Virus record (IMG/VR): IMGVR_UViG_3300050120_000110
Location: 1 to 38,410 of that record
Strand: one strand, 5' to 3'
Origin: a virus
Length of the DNA stretch: 38,410 nucleotides
Within the stretch, counting starts at the first letter, position 1. Every line of letters starts with the position of its first letter. The translations under genes and the position numbers were made by a program. Below are positions 1,946 to 22,910 of this stretch, piece after piece. The notes beneath the pieces are model-generated. The model saw only the letters and a program-made list of their open reading frames with translations, searched no databases and was not told the origin of the DNA.

Positions 1946-3576
1946 GATTGGAGAGTGTACCCGGTTCGTTGCGTTCTGGCGTAAAAAGTCCCTACCGCGG
2001 TATTAGACGAGGCAACCGCCGATACTTCGATTGCCAGTTTATTGAACACCAGTGGTATGGGCCACGGGACGGTGTACGTAATTGGCTGTGTAGCCGAAGA
2101 TGACCATTGTCCAGACCCCCATAGAAACGAATTCCAAACTGCGCCATTCGCCTGAGTCGTAACACCTGCCGACGCAATAAAGTTGCCTCTATCGTTGAAA
2201 GATTGAATTGAAAAGTTAAGTGGCATGCCCGACGACGACAATTCGATGGTCGATTCCACAACTTGTTTCATCGCCATTTCATCGCGTTTAGGGAAATCCG
2301 AAGACTTCATGTCTATGTTGAAAGGCACGCCAAGGTCAGTGTAAATCGTGTTCGTGTTCGGTCTAGTCAAACTTTGAAGTAACTGGGCAAGATTGAACAC
2401 ACTCGATAAAATGAACGCGTCCCCCGTGGAAGACGCGCATCCGTACTCAAATGTATGAGGGCCATTCCACCGAAGTCGCGTCGTATCGAACCAGTAATCG
2501 TATGTTCCCGACACCCCATCAACGATGGTGGGAATACAAATACGATAGATAGCTCCAGCAAATGCGGCTGCGACACGCGAAGGGGTTGTAACGTAATTGA
2601 ATGGTGTTCTCAAGTCGGATTGCGCACCAATCGATCCCAATTGATGGGCAACGACCGTTACCGCCCCGTACGGACTAACAATGTAAGCCGCGTCGGTTCC
2701 TGCAAAAAACACACCGAAAGGTGTAGACACGACTGATCTCGGCGACAAGGTGCCGACATTCAGGGATATGTAATTCAGCGACAGACTGCCGGTCACAGCG
2801 GCATCCCCGGTTATCTGCCATATCTGAGTTACTTTGAACGCCAGCAACGCTCCGATAACACCCGCCGAAGTCGTTTGAACCGGCAAGCCCGACAACGCTG
2901 TGATCGGCGTACTGTCACCCAATGTCAACGCCTGACCCGCATTAGTCATGACGGTAGGAGTCAGAACATCGCTGTAGAACGCTTGATTCTTAACTGCGAA
3001 GTACGCTCGATTATTCAAGTTGGCAACGAAAGTTGGAACTCCGGGTAATCCGTTCGTCGCCGTGTTCATCGTTGAATACGCGGGCGCTGCGGGGTTCGTT
3101 ATGTCGATCACACCGAAGAAATTAGACCCCGCGCCCGTGTACCCCGGATGCGTGATGATGACCTTAATCCCAACGATAGTCAGAGTTGGCGGCGTCCAAG
3201 CTCCGGTCACAGCGGGGGACGTGGGACGCCCCTCGGCATTCCCTGCTGTAACGCCCGTAACCGTAATGAACGCCTGTGATACCAGGTCATACACAAACGG
3301 CTCGTCATGCCCCGCTGTAAGCCCCGTGGCAACCATTCCGTAGACCCGCGTGCCAATGACAACTTGCAATGATACGAACGCGGGTGTCGTGAAACCGACG
3401 AAATTAGTCAATGCTGCACCAACTCCCGGACGAGCGATTATCAACTCGGGGTTTGACGGGTCGAAAACAAGATTCTGAAGCTTACGGCAAGCTCCCGGAA
3501 ATACATCCGTGGCGTCGAAAGCGTCAACTAATCCACGTGGCGTAAAGCGGATCGGAGTGGATTGAGCGATAGCCAT
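1942..3576 (-). CDS. Tail hub / DNA stabilisation-like virion protein (P22 gp10-like)
   Basis: This 544-aa protein has no transmembrane segment and is dominated by short beta strands and Gly/Thr/Val-rich turns, as expected for a beta-propeller-like tail component. The N-terminus (IRFTPRGLVDAFDATD, then FPGACRKLQNLVFDP) resembles a family found after the head-tail adaptor in many podoviruses and often labelled packaged-DNA stabilisation or gp10-like. Its position between the adaptor-like gene and the collar/fiber genes fits a tail hub that closes the portal channel and anchors fibers. Assignment to the exact P22 gp10 fold is inference from family memory and gene order; a structural virion role is firmer. 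Confidence 0.6.
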   Translation of the reverse strand: MAIAQSTPIRFTPRGLVDAFDATDVFPGACRKLQNLVFDPSNPELIIARPGVGAALTNFVGFTTPAFVSLQVVIGTRVYGMVATGLTAGHDEPFVYDLVSQAFITVTGVTAGNAEGRPTSPAVTGAWTPPTLTIVGIKVIITHPGYTGAGSNFFGVIDITNPAAPAYSTMNTATNGLPGVPTFVANLNNRAYFAVKNQAFYSDVLTPTVMTNAGQALTLGDSTPITALSGLPVQTTSAGVIGALLAFKVTQIWQITGDAAVTGSLSLNYISLNVGTLSPRSVVSTPFGVFFAGTDAAYIVSPYGAVTVVAHQLGSIGAQSDLRTPFNYVTTPSRVAAAFAGAIYRICIPTIVDGVSGTYDYWFDTTRLRWNGPHTFEYGCASSTGDAFILSSVFNLAQLLQSLTRPNTNTIYTDLGVPFNIDMKSSDFPKRDEMAMKQVVESTIELSSSGMPLNFSIQSFNDRGNFIASAGVTTQANGAVWNSFLWGSGQWSSSATQPITYTVPWPIPLVFNKLAIEVSAVASSNTAVGTFYARTQRTGYTLQS

Positions 3577-3579
3577 GAA

Positions 3580-4272
3580 TCACCACGGCTCGATCTTGGT
3601 TGGACGCAAAGACCCGCCAATACGGAACCTGCGCGGATCAAGTTTGACCTCTTTGACCACCTGTTGCTCGTCTCCCTCAGTCAAAAGATGAACACCCAAC
3701 ATACGCATGGCGTCCGCTTCAAAGCCCGGATAGCGCGTGTCGTCGGTCACACGCATAAGCCTCATCGCCGTGGCAGTTACGAGATAGTCCTGATCTTCGA
3801 ACCACGGAATCGTCGCGCTCGATTCGGGCGTGACGATATCCGCACGCTTGACCATGTAGCGATGCGTCAGGATCAGCCCCGTATTTGATTGGGGGTAGAT
3901 GTAGAGCAATCCCGGCTGCTGCGTAGCAACGGGAGAAAGATCGGTAGCCCACTCGTACGGGTAATTCGACGTGGTTGACTTGTTGGGCTCACTATCGAAC
4001 TGCTGTCGATTCGACGGTTGCAGGAAATACGGTTGATCGTTGATGAGATACATCAACTCATACGTCCGAAGATAGTCGGGTTCAAGATTGAACGGACCGT
4101 TGCTGTTGGCAATCACAGGGATCGTCGTCGATACGAGATTGACCTTCAAATTCCGATGCATAACCAAGTCTTGCAAGACAAGGTTAAGACACCTTCCGCC
4201 CAACGAAACGAATCCTGGGCACTTGGCGATTGCCAGTGCGTCAGCGACGATTTGTTGGGCAGAAATGGGCAT
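3580..4272 (-). CDS. Head-tail adaptor-like protein
   Basis: This 230-aa protein starts with a helical segment (ISAQQIVADALAIAKCPGF, then RCLNLVLQDLVMHRNL). Aromatic-rich strands follow (FNLEPDYLRTYELMYL, YPYEWATDLSP, LLYIYPQ). This architecture is common in podoviral head-tail connector proteins encoded just after the capsid module. It lies between capsid-side orphans and the tail hub, and its start overlaps the 137-aa gene stop. I infer a dodecameric adaptor under the portal, analogous to P22 gp4 or T7 gp11. I see no catalytic motif. Moderate confidence in the adaptor role, high that it is a gene. Confidence 0.5.
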   Translation of the reverse strand: MPISAQQIVADALAIAKCPGFVSLGGRCLNLVLQDLVMHRNLKVNLVSTTIPVIANSNGPFNLEPDYLRTYELMYLINDQPYFLQPSNRQQFDSEPNKSTTSNYPYEWATDLSPVATQQPGLLYIYPQSNTGLILTHRYMVKRADIVTPESSATIPWFEDQDYLVTATAMRLMRVTDDTRYPGFEADAMRMLGVHLLTEGDEQQVVKEVKLDPRRFRIGGSLRPTKIEPW

Positions 4273-4685
4273 TACAGACCCACCTTGGCTTTGGCGTCTG
4301 CAATCGCTTGCGTACCCTTGTCAATCTCTTCTTGCACCTTACCGACGCTGTTGCTGATGTTGGTGATAGCAAGCTTTTCTTGACTGGTGAGCTTTCCGCC
4401 CGCCGACTGCTTCATGTCCAGCGAAGACATATGCTCGCGCATTTGATCCAGTTGCTTGATCATCTGATCTCGCTTGGCTTCCAGTTCCGGAATTTCGGCA
4501 CGTGTGCGCTGACGGTCCAAAACGTCGTGCAGAATATCCACACGGGCGTTCACGGACTCGAACGACTCGCCGTCGTACAGATAGCCGCTGACTGCAAAAG
4601 TCTTGCCGTTGGGCAAGGTTGCACTCAGGTTGTAATTTCCGGTTACGGCTACGCCGGACGGATCAATAGGTTTATTTTCGCTCAC
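4272..4685 (-). CDS. Orphan protein with C-terminal coiled coil
   Basis: This 137-aa protein is not recognised. The first 45 residues look beta-rich (NYNLSATLPNGKTFAVSGYL). Residues 50-130 are highly charged and heptad-like (ELEAKRDQMIKQLDQMREHM, then VGKVQEEIDKGTQAIADAKA), predicting a long helix or coiled coil. The start is a GTG at 4685, chosen because AGGAGA sits about 8 bases upstream. The gene lies in the capsid-to-tail interval and could be a head decoration, completion or small tail chaperone protein. There is no sequence evidence to choose between these. Confidence 0.7.
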   Translation of the reverse strand: MSENKPIDPSGVAVTGNYNLSATLPNGKTFAVSGYLYDGESFESVNARVDILHDVLDRQRTRAEIPELEAKRDQMIKQLDQMREHMSSLDMKQSAGGKLTSQEKLAITNISNSVGKVQEEIDKGTQAIADAKAKVGL

Positions 4686-4709
4686 TGGGGGTTCTCCTGG
4701 GGTTGGTAA

Positions 4710-5192
4710 TTAGTGTGCGCGTTGAGCTCTTGCGGCGGAAGTCATCAAATGCTTGTTCATGGGCTTGCGGTAAGCATTCTCTTGATCACCATGAATGCTC
4801 TTCTCGTGCTCCCAACAACGGGCCACTCGGCTCTTCATATCGGCCAGAGTCATCGGATCGAACTCATACGTTTGGCCGTGGTAGTACGCCACCCCGTTTG
4901 TAGTCAGATCGAGACCCGCACCAGCCGGAAGGTCGATGCGATAGAAATACGTCGGGTATTCGACATTCTTGTATTTCAGTTTCTTTTCGTCCTTTTCGGC
5001 AGGGTTCAGACACACCGAAACGGTAACCGTCTTACCGGTGGGCTGCTCCTCGGTCCCGTTGTACGGGCCGACCATGGATAGCGCGTGTGCCTGAGCCTCA
5101 CCGCGAGCGGCCTCAGATTCGCCTAGAGCCGATTGCAGACGAGTAATCTCGTCGCGCATGAACTTCAGTTCTTCTTCAGTGGTCTTAGCCAT
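4710..5192 (-). CDS. Orphan protein of the capsid module
   Basis: This 160-aa protein is not recognised. An N-terminal charged helix (EEELKFMRDEITRLQSALGE) is followed by a beta-rich middle with an apparent folded domain (KTVTVSVCLNPAEKDEKKL, PTYFYRIDLPAGAGLDLT, VAYYHGQTYEFD) and a basic C-terminus rich in His, Arg and Ala. The start overlaps the stop of the upstream 113-aa gene as TAATG. Position after the capsid protein suggests a virion or head-associated role, but nothing in the sequence identifies one. Confidence 0.7.
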   Translation of the reverse strand: MAKTTEEELKFMRDEITRLQSALGESEAARGEAQAHALSMVGPYNGTEEQPTGKTVTVSVCLNPAEKDEKKLKYKNVEYPTYFYRIDLPAGAGLDLTTNGVAYYHGQTYEFDPMTLADMKSRVARCWEHEKSIHGDQENAYRKPMNKHLMTSAARAQRAH

Positions 5193-5533
5193 TACGATGC
5201 TCCACGGGTGACGTTGATGACCATCGGATGATCGGCGGAATCTCGACCAAACGAACGGGTTTCCAGAATATGGACCGGGACGGATGGTGCCGACTCGACA
5301 AGCACCGGCTCTGATGGTGCCGACTCGGCCACAGGTTCAGCGGCAGGAGCCGGAGAGGGAACCCCGTCCACCTCATCTGTGGCCGAGACCGACGTAACTG
5401 GTTCGGTGCGTTCGCCATCAACCGGGGAAAGAGAAGGCTCGGGATGGTTGAACGGGATCATCTTTTCGACAAACCCCTCAATTTTCGCAACCTCTTCCTT
5501 CAAACCTTCGAAGGTGGTGATTTCTTCATTCAT
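5192..5533 (-). CDS. Acidic Pro/Ala/Glu-rich orphan
   Basis: This 113-aa protein is strongly acidic. It has a helical N-terminus (EITTFEGLKEEVAKIEGFVE) and then a low-complexity linker rich in Pro, Ala, Ser, Glu and Val (about residues 30-90). The start at 5533 has a clear AGGAG ribosome-binding site and follows the stem-loop at 5555-5576 after the major capsid gene. Low complexity plus helical ends would suit a disordered assembly factor or a head-exposed decoration, but that is inference. No family is recognised. Confidence 0.65.
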   Translation of the reverse strand: MNEEITTFEGLKEEVAKIEGFVEKMIPFNHPEPSLSPVDGERTEPVTSVSATDEVDGVPSPAPAAEPVAESAPSEPVLVESAPSVPVHILETRSFGRDSADHPMVINVTRGAS

Positions 5534-5554
5534 TGAATTCTCCTAGATGTGGAA

Positions 5555-5576
5555 CCCCGGACGGTTAGGTCCGGGG
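5555..5576 (-). terminator. Stem-loop after the capsid gene
   Basis: A perfect 8-bp inverted repeat (CCCCGGAC / GTCCGGGG) flanks a 6-nt loop, between the end of the major capsid gene (stop at 5590) and the next start at 5533. In the minus-strand direction it is not followed by a strong T-run, so it is more likely an attenuator or mRNA-stabilising hairpin than a full intrinsic terminator. Confidence 0.45.
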
Positions 5577-5589
5577 ATGGGTCAACCGA

Positions 5590-7056
5590 TTACTCCGACG
5601 CAGTTCCGGCTGTGTAACCCGGCGAGAACGCAGAACCGGACTCAACTCGCGCCATGTAGGCGTTGTTCAGGATGATCGTGCCGTACATCATTTTCCAAGA
5701 TACCACACGGGTCTGGTTCATCGGGTCCGACTTGTCGGCATCGCGCAGGTAGTGATACTGCACGTTCTCGAGCAAGACCTGACCGTAAGCGTCGGTACCG
5801 AAGAAGTACGTAGGGAACACAGTCACGCCAGTTGCGGGAGCCGAAGGCGGCGTTTGTGCGGCACCAACGCCGGTCAGAACCACCGTAGAGCCGGACGCCA
5901 GTTGCGTTGCCATACCAGCCAGAGGGCCGGTCGATGGGCCGGACGCAGACACCGCCAGATTCGTCGGCGTCGCAGAGGTGCCGATATAGACGTTGAACAC
6001 AAATCCGGTCAGAGTCGGCAGCGTGATGCTGATCGAACCCGTAGCCCCCGTGGTCACAGTGCCGGAACCAACTTGGTAGATTTTCTGTTCCACCGAAGTT
6101 TGAGCCGGAGACGCAGTGACTTGCAGGAAATACGTCGCTGCGGCCAGTTGCCCACCCGTGGTCGCCGGAGTTCCGTTACCCACCGTCGCAACACCCGTCC
6201 AGTACGGAATCATATTGGTTTTGCAGAACCGGGTGCCCCCCCATTCGCCAATGTCGTTGTTGTACAGACGATCGATATCGCTGTATGACCACGCGGTGGC
6301 GATGGTGGCGTTTTGACGCAAGTCCTGAGTCACAAGCGGATGCACCAGCGCCACATAATGCGGCATGGCGCTGGGCTTCTTGCTCATGTTCTTATAAGCG
6401 TTCGCGTCTTCCATCATGTCCACGCGCTCATCGCCGTTGAACAGAGGTGCGCCAAATGTTTCCAGAGAACCGACAATCTTGCCGATTTCCATAGGACTCA
6501 TCACGTCAGCCGCAACAAGCGCGGCGCGGTTGGCCTTGCCGTTGGCGTAATTGACCTGCGTTGCCGTGGTCAGGATGTTGAACACATTGCGCTCAACGGT
6601 TTCCGGTTGCTGAATGGCGATCAAACGAATCGCCTGTTTGAACAGGGGATGCTTGATGGTCATGTCGGCCACATCGGTGACTCGAACCAGATCGCCCCAT
6701 TGTTGCGCTTGGGCGCTGACTTGGGCAATCGTGATCGCCTCACCGGCAGCGGCCACACCTTCAGAGAGCGGCGAAAACGGCAAGGGAAGACGTTCGTAAC
6801 GAGTCGCGGTGTACGTAACACCGGCATTTTTCTCGATTCGAAGCGGTTGACCGAACTGATAAGCAACCAATTGACGCTGAGCGATTCGAAGCACGGCCTC
6901 TTGAATGTGTAATTCAATATCGTTCGCAATCGTTTGATTGTTCGGACCGGGGGAGTAATTCGTCAGCCCCGGATAGAGTTTCTCCATTTGGGCAACGAGC
7001 CAACTGGCACCGATAATGATGGCGATGACAGCGAGTGACAGCAAAAGGTATTTCAT
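5590..7056 (-). CDS. Major capsid protein, N4 gp56-type, with Ig-like insertion
   Basis: This 488-aa protein forms the capsid shell. The HK97-fold core of the N4 gp56 family is seen from about residue 40: a long helix (ELHIQEAVLRIAQRQLVAYQ), IRLIAIQQPETVERNVFNIL, HYVALVHPLVTQDLR, and the C-terminal VVSWKMMYGTIILNNAYMAR. Residues about 289-409 are a Thr/Gly/Ser-rich block that interrupts the core and looks like an Ig or fibronectin-like surface domain. Residues 2-22 are a hydrophobic leader (YLLLSLAVIAIIIGASW), unusual for a capsid protein. The start at 7056 is preceded by AGGAT; an internal ATG at 6987 would remove the leader but has no clear ribosome-binding site. It follows the scaffold gene by 8 bp. 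Confidence 0.92.
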   Translation of the reverse strand: MKYLLLSLAVIAIIIGASWLVAQMEKLYPGLTNYSPGPNNQTIANDIELHIQEAVLRIAQRQLVAYQFGQPLRIEKNAGVTYTATRYERLPLPFSPLSEGVAAAGEAITIAQVSAQAQQWGDLVRVTDVADMTIKHPLFKQAIRLIAIQQPETVERNVFNILTTATQVNYANGKANRAALVAADVMSPMEIGKIVGSLETFGAPLFNGDERVDMMEDANAYKNMSKKPSAMPHYVALVHPLVTQDLRQNATIATAWSYSDIDRLYNNDIGEWGGTRFCKTNMIPYWTGVATVGNGTPATTGGQLAAATYFLQVTASPAQTSVEQKIYQVGSGTVTTGATGSISITLPTLTGFVFNVYIGTSATPTNLAVSASGPSTGPLAGMATQLASGSTVVLTGVGAAQTPPSAPATGVTVFPTYFFGTDAYGQVLLENVQYHYLRDADKSDPMNQTRVVSWKMMYGTIILNNAYMARVESGSAFSPGYTAGTASE

Positions 7057-14589: not shown

Positions 14590-14621
14590 ACCCCTGACGG
14601 GGAACAAATTAGGAGAATATG

Positions 14622-15524
14622 ATGATCGATATTTATATAGTTTCTAAAAATTGGAAATCTGAGGGTAAATGGAAGATCGCTCCGGCGGGTCTTGCTTGGA
14701 TCAAAGAAGGCGCACGGTCCAGCATCGGCGCACGGTCCAGCATCGGCGAATGGGCCAGCATCGGCGAATGGGCCAGCATCGGCGAAGGGGCCAGCATCGG
14801 CGCACGGTCCAGCATCGGCGAAGGGGCCAGCATCGGCGAATGGGCCAGCATCGGCGAAGAGGCCAGGATCGGCGAAGGGGCCAGGATCGGCGAAGGGGCC
14901 AGGATCGGCGAAGGGGCCAGGATCGGCGAAGGGGCCAGCATCGGCGAATGGGCCAGCATCGGCGAATGGGCCAGCATCGGCGAAGGGGCCAGCATCGGCG
15001 AAGGGGCCAGCATCGGCGCACGGTCCAGCATCGGCGAATGGGCCAGCATCGGCGAATGGGCCAGCATCGGCGCAGGGGCCAGCATCGGCGCACGGTCCAG
15101 GATCGGCGAAGGGGCCGGCATCGGCGCACGGTCCAGGATCGGCGAATGGGCCAGCATCGGCGAATGGGCCAGCATCGGCGAAGAGGCCAGGATCGGCGAA
15201 GGGGCCAGGATCGGCGAAGGGGCCAGGATCGGCGAAGGGGCCAGCATCGGCGCACGGTCCAGCATCGGCGCACGGTCCAGCATCGGCGAATGGGCCAGCA
15301 TCGGCGAATGGGCCAGAGATGTAGTAGACCTAGGTTGGGTAGACGGTTATCGTAAGTGTGTTGCACAGAAAGACGGCGTTGCCTGGATTGGCGCGGGCTG
15401 TCGGTGGTTTACTCTTGCCGATGCGCTAAAGCACTGGTCAAACAAGGATGGTCGTGAGTTAACGATGTGCTTGATGCAGTCAGCAATTTTCATCGCAGGG
15501 CTGCGCGGCTGGAGCCACGAATGA
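14622..15524 (+). CDS. Hexapeptide-repeat (left-handed beta-helix) protein
   Basis: This 300-aa protein is dominated by 33 perfect-length hexapeptides (variants of EWASIG, EGASIG, EGARIG and ARSSIG). The periodic Ile-Gly every six residues matches the left-handed beta-helix rule seen in acyltransferases and polymer-like repeat proteins, giving about 11 coils. A 30-aa cap (IDIYIVSKNWKSEGKWKIAP) precedes the repeats, and a 72-aa Trp/Cys-containing domain (VDGYRKCVAQKDGVAWIGAG) follows. No acyltransferase catalytic residue is apparent. ATGs lie at 14619 and 14622; the second has better spacing from AGGAG. An early anti-host or DNA-mimic role is conceivable but unproven. Confidence 0.85.
   Translation: MIDIYIVSKNWKSEGKWKIAPAGLAWIKEGARSSIGARSSIGEWASIGEWASIGEGASIGARSSIGEGASIGEWASIGEEARIGEGARIGEGARIGEGARIGEGASIGEWASIGEWASIGEGASIGEGASIGARSSIGEWASIGEWASIGAGASIGARSRIGEGAGIGARSRIGEWASIGEWASIGEEARIGEGARIGEGARIGEGASIGARSSIGARSSIGEWASIGEWARDVVDLGWVDGYRKCVAQKDGVAWIGAGCRWFTLADALKHWSNKDGRELTMCLMQSAIFIAGLRGWSHE
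14712..15305 (+). repeat. 18-bp tandem repeat array, 33 units
   Basis: Thirty-three consecutive 18-bp units, each ending in ATCGGC, differ mainly in the first six and the tenth to twelfth bases (for example GAATGGGCCAGCATCGGC). A higher-order block (EWASIG, EEARIG, EGARIG runs, EGASIG) appears twice, about units 8-13 and 26-30, showing duplication of several units at once. The unit has no stop codon in any plus frame and none in at least two minus frames, so long false reading frames appear here. Confidence 0.95.
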
Positions 15525-20120: not shown

Positions 20121-20329
20121 TTCGACCCCTTTGTCTCTACCATCGGTGGAACATAATCCATGCGACTTCGTTGACGCACTTTAGATTGCTCCGCATCCCG
20201 GTCAGCCGGTGCATTGAGGGCGCGATCGGCTGCGATGGCTGCGCGGGCAAGTTTCCTGCCATATCCTCCTGCCCCCCATGCATGCTCTTTCAAAATGGCA
20301 TCGATCTGGCCATCCGTAAGTTCTTTCAT
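20117..20329 (-). CDS. Small orphan (MKELTDGQID family)
   Basis: This 70-aa protein opens with MKELTDGQIDAILKEHAW and contains LARAAIAADRAL, a pattern common among small phage proteins of unknown role. The C-terminus is charged and probably disordered. The ATG overlaps the helicase stop (ATGA). Confidence 0.65.
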   Translation of the reverse strand: MKELTDGQIDAILKEHAWGAGGYGRKLARAAIAADRALNAPADRDAEQSKVRQRSRMDYVPPMVETKGSK

Positions 20330-22812
20330 AATTCAATCCTTTGTTTAAGTTCATCCGCTTCTTTACGCCCAAGTGTTTGGGCAGTTCCTATATCGATTCC
20401 ATACTTAAAATAAAACCGCCTCTGCGCCATGGATATGGTGTCGCCCTGCGCGGTACGCTGACCGCCCCATAACGCCATGGCTTCACGCAACTGAGCCTGC
20501 GCTTCTTGCCTTTCGCGGTGCCGCGCCTTGAGCGAAGCTTGAATCAATTTATCGGGATGAAACGCGGGCGGGGCGTCAATCTCGCCACGCAGCTTGGCCA
20601 GTGCTTCAGGGGTCAACTCGTACAGATCACCGTCAACTTCTTCGGGTAGGGAGCGACCTGCGGGTTCCGGCGCAAAACCGCAATAGGGGCAAGTTGCCAA
20701 TACTCGCTCGTACGCGCCAGTACACTCAGGACAGGTCCGCACCGGAATAACTTGTTCGACGGTTGCGCTGGTTCGACGCTCACGACGGTCCAGTGTCCAG
20801 ACCCTGGGGGCATCGGGTAATCCATGGCGGTGAACGTTCCCAACGTGGTCGATAATGATTGCATGTAACTTTCCTTCCATGGGACGCAACGAACGTCCGA
20901 ACTGTTGACAGAATAACCCGTAGCTTTGCGTCGGCCGCGCCATGCTGATAACTTCGATGGCTGGAAGGTCGAACCCTTCACCAAACAGATCAACGTTCAC
21001 CACTTGCAACAATTCACGTCGCCTGAGTCTTTGCAGGATCGAACGACGTAAACCGTCAGGTGTCTTCGCGCTAACCATTTCGGCGGGTATCCCGTGATGC
21101 CGAAATGCTGCCGCCATCTCAGTTGCGCTTTCTACATCCACAGTAAAAGTTATCCCCAACTTACCCGGCGCAATGCGTTGATAATGTTGCACCACGTCAC
21201 CGACGATATGGCTCTTATGAACGGCATGCGCGAGTTTGGGCGGAGAAAAGTCGCCCGAAGCGCTGAGCGGTACATCGCGCAGATCAATGTCAGAGGGCGG
21301 TGCAAATATCCGGTACTCAGTCAAATATCCATCCGCGATAAGCTCTCGCATCGTCGGCCCTTGCACCATCGTGTCCATAAGGCCATCGGCGTGACGACCG
21401 AGTCCGTTACCGTCAGCTCGGCACGGCGTGGCGGTAACGCCTAACATGCGGGCTTGAGGAAACATGGACGCCGCAGCACCCCATTTGTTTTTCTTCAAGA
21501 CGTGATGGCAGTTGTGCACAACTATTCCGTTTGCGACGTAAGTGTGATGCTCATCAACTTCAAAATTGTAGACATAACCGCCCTCACCACAACCTCCGGG
21601 TGTTCCAATATTTCGGTGTTCGTAAATCTCAACGTCGTCCAACCCAGTCCATTTAAAAACTTCTCCTTTTTCGCATCTTTCAATGAACCTTTCCCGGAAT
21701 GCGTCGAACCGTCCGCCTCCAGCGCTAGCCTCAGTTTCCAGTTCCCCATATCCGGCTTGTACACTGGCGGGAAACCGCTCCCGTCCCCGATTGTGTGTCC
21801 GGTCCGAATGTTCGGTTGAGGCACAAAACCCAACGCGGAAAACATGATCGACAAAGTTTCTTCGGCCAAAGTTGCTGGTTTTCCATTCCCCCCTTGAACT
21901 TTCGGCTTGTGCCCAATCTCCCGTAGACGGTTCGTCATTTTTGATACCGATCTCGGATCGTGCATTGGATTTTTCTTGCGCATGCGGTCTGACGCATATT
22001 CCAGATTTGTCTTCGTCGCAGTTTCGGATGAAATCCTTTTTCGGTATTCCGTAGAGCATTCCCGACAGCAATACCCCCGACCCGTCTTCGCGTAAAAAGC
22101 CATCAATGGTGCGTTCCGAATGACGGGCGCCCCGCAAATAAAACAGTTCATCAAAAAGTACCTCGTCTGTGCGTTCAAGTTCGTCGGCTCTGATCCAGCC
22201 CCGTTTGGTAAAAAAGGGATGGTTCGGTGTGCAGTTAAGTTCATGATGCGTTATTCTAATACGCACCATTCGTTTCGGTTGTGCTTTTTTGAACAAACGA
22301 ACTACTTTTCGTTCGACAAACTCCCCCGAAACTTCGTTGAAGGCGGTCACTGTATCGCCGACGCGAACGTCTTCAATAGGTCTCCCGTCAATGAGCGTAC
22401 CTGCGATAAAGCACTCATCCTGAACAACTAAAGATACCGATTGCGTCCAGGCGTTGGGTTCCATGCGCACCAGCGTGTCAACACCAGCCACAGCAACGCG
22501 ATTGCCTGGATCAACGTAATTTCGGCGCAGTTCGGCCAGGTGCTGCGTGGTGCAGGTATGGGCGACCGCCTTCGGCCCGACGATTCTGTGACGGACACCG
22601 TTACGGGCCAGCGCAAGACTAATCTGCACGACAAGTTCCTGACGATGCGCGATAGCTACCGACGCGCCCGGCTCACGGGCTATGATGTCGCTGAAAATCA
22701 CAGTCTTACCGCCGCCTGTAGGGAGTGTCAGCAACACGTTGCGATGACCCTGTGACCACGCGTTTAACACGCCGTCACGGCAATCTATCTGATAGGGACG
22801 AAGTTGTGTCAT
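20326..22812 (-). CDS. SF2 DExH helicase precursor with intein
   Basis: This 828-aa precursor is an SF2 helicase. It has MTQLRPYQ (Q-like motif), Walker A LPTGGGKT, a DE-CHH Walker B box split by an intein, GVTATP (motif III), FGEGFDLPAIEVI (motif V), QQFGRSLRP (motif VI), and a CPEC/CPYC zinc finger near the C-terminus. Removing the 301-aa intein gives a 527-aa protein of normal size and restores DECHH, so splicing is required for ATPase activity. The ATG at 22812 overlaps the 33-aa gene stop as ATGA; an ATG at 22878 would overlap that gene and is rejected. It probably acts in replication or restart. Confidence 0.9.
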   Translation of the reverse strand: MTQLRPYQIDCRDGVLNAWSQGHRNVLLTLPTGGGKTVIFSDIIAREPGASVAIAHRQELVVQISLALARNGVRHRIVGPKAVAHTCTTQHLAELRRNYVDPGNRVAVAGVDTLVRMEPNAWTQSVSLVVQDECFIAGTLIDGRPIEDVRVGDTVTAFNEVSGEFVERKVVRLFKKAQPKRMVRIRITHHELNCTPNHPFFTKRGWIRADELERTDEVLFDELFYLRGARHSERTIDGFLREDGSGVLLSGMLYGIPKKDFIRNCDEDKSGICVRPHAQEKSNARSEIGIKNDEPSTGDWAQAESSRGEWKTSNFGRRNFVDHVFRVGFCASTEHSDRTHNRGRERFPASVQAGYGELETEASAGGGRFDAFRERFIERCEKGEVFKWTGLDDVEIYEHRNIGTPGGCGEGGYVYNFEVDEHHTYVANGIVVHNCHHVLKKNKWGAAASMFPQARMLGVTATPCRADGNGLGRHADGLMDTMVQGPTMRELIADGYLTEYRIFAPPSDIDLRDVPLSASGDFSPPKLAHAVHKSHIVGDVVQHYQRIAPGKLGITFTVDVESATEMAAAFRHHGIPAEMVSAKTPDGLRRSILQRLRRRELLQVVNVDLFGEGFDLPAIEVISMARPTQSYGLFCQQFGRSLRPMEGKLHAIIIDHVGNVHRHGLPDAPRVWTLDRRERRTSATVEQVIPVRTCPECTGAYERVLATCPYCGFAPEPAGRSLPEEVDGDLYELTPEALAKLRGEIDAPPAFHPDKLIQASLKARHRERQEAQAQLREAMALWGGQRTAQGDTISMAQRRFYFKYGIDIGTAQTLGRKEADELKQRIEL
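21511..22413 (-). mobile_element. Intein inserted in the DE/CHH ATPase box
   Basis: The intein spans precursor residues 134-434 (ATG at 22812). Block A is CFIAGTLIDG with nucleophile Cys1. Block B is ELNCTPNHPFFT with the TxxH pair. Block F is YVYNFEVDEHHTYVANG and block G is IVVHN followed by Cys+1. All residues needed for standard splicing are present. The 158 or so residues between the N-domain (ending near DELFY) and C-domain are polar, lack a hydrophobic core and show no LAGLIDADG or HNH motif. They are the other-frame reading of a nested endonuclease gene. Confidence 0.93.
21522..22151 (-). CDS. Homing endonuclease nested out of frame in the intein
   Basis: This 209-aa protein is read in the +1 frame relative to the intein and lies wholly inside it. 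It has an N-terminal zinc ribbon (CFIC near 3-6, CCREC near 28-32), a NUMOD-like KKNPMHDPRSVSKMTNRLR linker, and a Vsr/EDxHD or DUF559-like nuclease core: KPDMGNWKLRLALEADGSTH (Asp134, Glu145, Asp147, His151), Asp159, then GWTTLRFTN. The ATG at 22151 has GAGGT about 10 bases upstream and coincides with the point where the intein N-domain ends. The stop is 9 nt before the last intein codon boundary region. An upstream ATG at 22244 lacks a good site. It probably cleaves intein-less helicase alleles. Confidence 0.85.
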   Translation of the reverse strand: MNCFICGAPVIRNAPLMAFYAKTGRGYCCRECSTEYRKRISSETATKTNLEYASDRMRKKNPMHDPRSVSKMTNRLREIGHKPKVQGGNGKPATLAEETLSIMFSALGFVPQPNIRTGHTIGDGSGFPPVYKPDMGNWKLRLALEADGSTHSGKGSLKDAKKEKFLNGLGWTTLRFTNTEILEHPEVVVRAVMSTILKLMSITLTSQTE

Positions 22813-22910
22813 GAAGTAAGTTGGATGATGGCGATACCCATGAGTGCGACCACTAACGATCCGCACGCGAGCAGCCATGCTACGGCGAGCGCTATGAAAA
22901 AGTAGTCCAT
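22809..22910 (-). CDS. 33-aa membrane peptide upstream of helicase
   Basis: This short gene encodes a 33-aa peptide starting MDYFFIALAVAWLL and ending IAIIQLTS, almost entirely hydrophobic, with one or two membrane passes. Its TGA overlaps the helicase ATG (ATGA), and it begins 4 bp after the stop of another small membrane peptide gene. This head-to-tail packing fixes the helicase start and supports translation. Function unknown. Confidence 0.6.
   Translation of the reverse strand: MDYFFIALAVAWLLACGSLVVALMGIAIIQLTS

Follow-up and report, generated by a model that had tools for sequence, protein, structure and literature searches.

Inteins are known as splicing domains that carry a homing endonuclease in the same reading frame, as in PI-SceI. 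Where, then, is the endonuclease of an intein whose own frame encodes none? The question is raised by the IMG/VR virus record IMGVR_UViG_3300050120_000110 (positions 1 to 38,410; this whole stretch of 38,410 nucleotides is referred to as the window), in which an intein interrupts a gene for a superfamily 2 (SF2) helicase. Our analyses indicate that this is very probably a mobile cis-splicing HINT intein whose homing endonuclease is a separate gene, overlapping the intein in the +1 frame, and not a domain of the intein polypeptide.

The helicase intein and the gene nested within it

The features concerned are the following, in window coordinates:

20326..22812, minus strand: SF2 helicase gene with intein, coding for a 527-aa extein and a 301-aa intein; an alternative upstream ATG lies at 22878
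22414..22812, minus strand: N-extein, 133 aa, with the C-terminal end ...VVQDE
21511..22413, minus strand: intein, 301 codons, in the same frame as the helicase (Pfam and AlphaFold2 model)
22117..22413, minus strand: N-terminal splicing domain (intein residues 1-99), with predicted local confidence (pLDDT) >90 up to residue 90
21664..22116, minus strand: intein-frame residues 100-250, predicted to be disordered read-through of the endonuclease gene
21511..21663, minus strand: C-terminal splicing domain (intein residues 251-301), into which the 3' part of the endonuclease gene extends
20329..21510, minus strand: C-extein, 394 aa, with the first residues CHHVLKKN
22160..22164, minus strand: Shine-Dalgarno-like GAGGT, 8 nt before the nested ATG at 22151 and, in the intein frame, part of T-D-E-V
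21522..22151, minus strand: nested homing endonuclease gene, 209 aa plus stop, +1 relative to the intein frame, in a frame open up to 22244
22056..22145, minus strand: putative zinc-binding region of the endonuclease (C3, C6, C28, C32)
21549..21878, minus strand: EDxHD/Vsr-like catalytic domain, residues 92-201, with invariant D134, E145, D147, H151 and D159
21522..21524, minus strand: endonuclease stop codon TAG, spanning the Ile and Val codons of the last splicing block of the intein

An earlier note, drawn from the letters of this DNA, had described an intein splitting an SF2 helicase between DE and CHH with all splicing residues intact, and this part of its reading is borne out by direct inspection, by Pfam and by a HINT model. 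The exteins match ResIII and Helicase_C, while the intein matches Intein_splicing (3.3e-11); it begins with the Cys at 22413, immediately after ...VVQDE, and ends with ...VVHN at 21511, before CHHVLKKN. The class 1 splicing residues (Cys1, TPNH as the TxxH of block B, the terminal HN and Cys+1) are all there. The sizes given in the note, 301 aa for the intein and 527 aa for the ligated product, agree with the lengths computed from the ATG at 22812. Helicase activity can reasonably be expected to depend wholly on splicing. What the note overlooked is the endonuclease in the +1 frame, the lack of any endonuclease in the intein frame and the nature of the intein middle.

In the AlphaFold2 model built from the intein alignment, residues 1-99 and 251-301 adopt a HINT fold (Z 19, 1.7 Å over 129 residues against the Mtu RecA intein). 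Confidence is high for residues 1-90 and 251-301, whereas residues 101-250 mostly have a pLDDT <50 (about 40). Because the intein frame is modelled with confidence solely at its HINT ends, while the nuclease frame folds, the middle of the intein polypeptide (~150 residues) is, on these models, read-through of the nuclease gene that needs only to remain open.

The nested open reading frame (ORF) matches DUF559 in Pfam (4.9e-11), and a profile of 72 relatives recovers the Protein Data Bank (PDB) entry 3hrl (1.5e-11) and I-Bth0305I (0.0098). An N-terminal Cys4 cluster precedes the nuclease domain, and the motif ExDGxxH is present in 102 of 104 cases. The model built from the nuclease alignment reaches a pLDDT of 92, its structural matches (Foldseek, re-ranked) being 3hrl (Z 13.6, 1.2 Å over 89 residues), I-Bth0305I (3r3p, Z 11.8) and Vsr (1cw0, Z 9.6), with Neisseria NGO0050 and I-Bth0305I as the nearest structures. 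The predicted gene would start inside the N-terminal splicing domain and stop inside the C-terminal splicing block, leaving about 70% of the intein DNA in the window dual-coded; near the intein end, for instance, GYVYNFEV of the intein and VMSTILK of the nuclease are written in one stretch of DNA. In many loci the nuclease likewise ends at a TAG spanning two hydrophobic codons of the last splicing block. Four related loci (L013, L016-L018) encode a nested endonuclease with two Cys4 zinc-finger-like modules instead of one, which suggests modular growth of the DNA-binding part.

Recurrence among phages and constraint on two frames

A scan of viral contigs with a single protein recovered only 2 relatives, and with a nine-member alignment 312, the best 80 of which were kept; these and 38 loci from genome assemblies make up the alignment-based set. 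A tblastn search of isolated phages returned 40 records, each hit lying under a gene annotated as helicase, coil-containing, hypothetical or P-loop NTPase, and in the isolate records checked the nested nuclease gene is unannotated. Nine isolate representatives were taken and the nuclease was at +1 in all eight in which the frame was checked; one locus, L021 (Rostov M3), is identical to that of CP-T1 (100% over the gene). Carriers occur among viral contigs and bacterial assemblies as well as isolated phages (Vibrio CP-T1, Pseudomonas MR14, Corynebacterium phi673), and most of those found are Vibrio phages and uncultivated viruses. A megablast search of phages with 20 kb of the window itself gave no match.

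Among 109 loci classified by frame, the nuclease lies at +1 of a long open host frame in 101 and at -1 in none; an in-frame nuclease was considered and found in none. The other eight consist of two loci truncated at contig ends (L035, L059), two free-standing nuclease genes (L066, L069) and four generic DUF559 genes. One +1 locus (L114) was dropped, being +1 by the frame test alone and lacking splicing blocks; nearly all the remaining ones have splicing blocks at both ends, exceptions such as L086 being cut by contig ends. The set contains 86 distinct inteins of this architecture, all with the nuclease at +1. Cys1 is present in every one, TxxH in 82/86, the terminal HN in 83/86 (SN in the other 3), and the +1 residue is always Cys or Ser.

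The survey of the DE/CHH position in relatives that the earlier note had proposed gives a clear pattern: 81 of the 86 inteins follow the Walker-B DE and 58 precede CHH. The Walker-B site, from which the note had expected spread among distant helicases, is shared by diverse hosts: Pfam assigned representative hosts to SF2 helicases, DNA polymerase III clamp loaders and SNF2 ATPases; for a few of these representatives (L091, L108) Pfam named no host family. In two large proteins, L111 and the unnamed host L108, the +1 residue is Ser (DE/SSILK) and not Cys.

Could two long frames simply coincide? To address stop codons, synonymous codons of the nuclease were permuted and stops were counted in the intein frame. 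The intein frame of the window contains 0 stops against 7.3 expected (P<2e-4), and the third frame contains 13. All 86 distinct inteins have 0 intein-frame stops against an expected median of 9.0, with P<0.01 in 82/86, whereas 29 and 9 stops, respectively, were counted in the corresponding frame of L066 and L069, the free-standing relatives, in line with their shuffle expectation. Substitutions between related loci are also codon-periodic. In the overlap core they gather at nuclease codon position 3 (by position, 4,1,34 in L016/L018, p 5e-12, and 21,14,65 in L102/L103), while in the N-terminal splicing domain they gather at intein codon position 3 (e.g. 1,0,14 in L017/L018). Between the window and L022, amino-acid identity is 54% in the nuclease frame and 27% in the intein frame. 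Both frames are open far beyond chance, and purifying selection acts on each of them. Long overlapping ORFs can be spurious, as at a repeat at 14.7-15.3 kb of the window, but an origin of the overlap by chance or as an artefact of composition is scarcely conceivable, being ruled out by the synonymous shuffles, the free-standing controls, the +1 placement in all 86 inteins and the codon-periodic substitutions.

The repeat just mentioned is an 18-bp unit in 33 near-perfect copies (14719-15316), with other frames open on both strands. The product of the plus-strand frame at 14619-15524 consists of hexapeptide repeats (left-handed beta-helix; Pfam Hexapep, 8e-42) and is possibly a repeat-expanded surface or ice-binding-like protein.

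Empty sites, probable mobility and expression signals of the nuclease

If the element is mobile, are there alleles that it has not entered? The earlier note made its reading depend on intein-free homologues, and these exist: the helicase is unbroken in L004-L011, and the phage vB_VchM-138 (L140), a close relative of the carrier CP-T1, holds an exact empty allele. Its helicase gene is that of CP-T1 minus the 1059-nt intein, equal in length and with 73/1923 nt mismatches. Since the empty site reads DEAHH where CP-T1 has DECHH, relatives that lack the intein do not all have Cys at +1; co-conversion of the +1 Cys codon, or a need for Cys at that position, may explain the difference. Across Vibrio phages the same helicase site is found empty (PS17B.1), occupied by a mini-intein of ~150 aa (268E42.1, K459) or occupied by the +1 type (1.088.O and others). 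The mini-intein (L142, L143) was considered as a deletion derivative, and its sequence looks diverged. The helicase of PS65A.1 (L141, 301-3432) carries a mini-intein at Walker B together with a larger second intein at Walker A (GGGK/T), the latter apparently with its own in-frame endonuclease.

In several pairs of close carriers the unit of intein and nuclease is better conserved than its flanks. The sampled intein DNA of L098 and L100 differs by 4 changes, against 99/786 nt in the C-extein, and L016 and L017 diverge by 4.9% in the nuclease core but by 23.5% in the C-extein. These close pairs and the empty alleles fit homing between diverged hosts, though other recombination could yield the same patterns. 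Over all distances, those of the endonuclease correlate with those of the intein (r 0.45) and of the extein (0.49), with a partial correlation of 0.28 between endonuclease and intein given the extein; this test accordingly does not separate deep co-inheritance of endonuclease and intein from host relatedness, and mobility is more clearly seen in the close pairs.

In locus L066, a free-standing relative of the nuclease (3358-3999) lies directly upstream of a helicase gene (3965-5626) and overlaps its start; this helicase is intein-free and has the target site DEAHR. The arrangement is a plausible pre-invasion or ancestral state, and collaborative homing is a possible alternative.

In the mechanism that we favour, translation of the helicase frame would give a precursor. 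Excision of its 301-aa intein, which combines a HINT domain and a disordered loop of ~150 residues, would rebuild DECHH. Internal initiation at the ATG at 22151, behind the Shine-Dalgarno-like GAGGT, would give a free 209-aa zinc-finger/DUF559 endonuclease, which most likely cuts intein-free Walker-B alleles of co-infecting phages, and recombination would then copy intein and nuclease together.

How might the nuclease be translated? A Shine-Dalgarno-like match of 5 nt at suitable spacing precedes a start in the endonuclease frame in 40/86 loci, compared with 9 for starts in the intein frame and 8 for those in the third frame; 13.5% of endonuclease-frame starts have such a match, against 5.1% of other codons, and in L003 TAAGGA stands 9 nt before the nuclease ATG. 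These signals argue against programmed +1 frameshifting during helicase translation, which would produce a fusion of N-extein, N-terminal intein and nuclease and not a free protein. We regard frameshifting as unlikely, even though the nuclease always lies at +1 relative to the host frame and, in the window, its frame is open for 31 codons upstream of the ATG. The upstream open stretch is variable among loci and very short in some (L023); slippery sequences were not systematically searched for.

Several points weigh against a separate, functional +1 endonuclease gene as the general explanation. Splicing, internal initiation (in preference to frameshifting or re-initiation), cleavage and homing are steps that we infer; the Shine-Dalgarno-like motif occurs in fewer than half of the loci, so initiation may differ between them; and the nuclease frame can be disrupted with no damage to the intein frame, through a premature stop in its zinc finger in L039 (about 4025) and an internal deletion in L121 (about 4001-4195), which makes it dispensable to the host. 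L039 and L121 look like stages of decay and, together with homing-cycle theory, which predicts such states, they favour the view that the window itself holds a mini-intein in which the remains of a dead nuclease have left the frame open by chance. We consider this very improbable for the window, where the catalytic residues and the predicted fold of the nuclease are intact, and related pairs show strong purifying selection on the nuclease frame. A functional, overlapping endonuclease gene is the explanation that we retain.

Relation to known systems and significance

Is this architecture already known under another name? Like the canonical PI-SceI type, the intein of the window has a HINT domain interrupted by an endonuclease at the usual place, and it fits homing into conserved host motifs; in the PI-SceI type, however, one polypeptide contains the splicing and the endonuclease domains in a single frame, and here the endonuclease is a different protein in a different frame. 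The catalytic fold, phage derivation and modular layout of the nuclease resemble those of I-Bth0305I, an EDxHD homing endonuclease, but that enzyme is intron-encoded, shares 17% identity over the aligned domain and differs in its DNA-binding regions.

Closer in some respects are the fractured genes of phage DNA metabolism reportedly described by Dassa in 2009, in which a separately translated Vsr-like endonuclease gene is said to lie between the splicing domains of a split intein. They share with the window a DNA-metabolism gene, an intein and a separate Vsr-like endonuclease gene, but there the host is broken into two ORFs joined by trans-splicing, whereas here the product of a single continuous ORF, overlapped out of frame by the nuclease gene, is predicted to splice in cis. 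A fractured host in two pieces, with a free-standing nuclease gene between them, might be suspected in the window too, given the same nuclease superfamily at the same place in the intein and the existence of related split inteins (a match to NrdJ-1). It is nevertheless most improbable, the host frame being one uninterrupted ORF with 0 stops across the nuclease gene in every complete locus.

Insertions in phage methylases (the ShiLan domain and Pacc40 gp60) carry an HNH homing endonuclease out of frame while the host frame stays open; their distribution is patchy, no ribosome-binding site is detectable, separate translation has been speculated on, and the inserts are thought to remain in the protein because no splicing domain was detected (Arsenault, Gosselin, Gogarten 2025, PMC11855218). 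The likeness lies in the patchy distribution and in a mobile insert that keeps the host frame open and encodes a homing endonuclease in another frame. The ShiLan type, however, combines an HNH nuclease with the third frame and has no splicing domain, whereas the window combines a DUF559/EDxHD nuclease with the +1 frame and a HINT intein that would remove the insert, nuclease and intein sharing codons in both splicing domains. An out-of-frame HNH nuclease in non-splicing inserts is already known; on a cis-splicing intein with an out-of-frame nuclease we found no paper in the PMC literature, and a 2025 preprint on non-canonical actinophage inteins, which we have not read and which PMC11855218 cites for overlapping reading frames in actinobacteriophages, may overlap.

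We consider it somewhat more probable than otherwise that these loci represent a widespread, largely unrecognised class of phage inteins, spanning phages of many bacterial phyla, in which the homing endonuclease is an overlapping +1 gene. Two unrelated proteins share ~70% of the intein DNA in about a hundred phage loci, among them phages sequenced years ago whose records show only the helicase; as the nuclease escapes gene callers, inteins of this kind would be recorded as degenerate or as lacking a nuclease. The architecture is intermediate between free-standing and fused endonucleases and makes the entry of nucleases into inteins testable. If the class is real, it would form a bridge among free-standing nucleases beside their target gene, as in L066, fractured genes and fused inteins. 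It would also provide a natural pair of entangled proteins, an instance of the sequence entanglement used in synthetic biology to stabilise genes: an indel that disrupts the nuclease disrupts an essential host protein as well, so that the loss of the selfish gene would slow.
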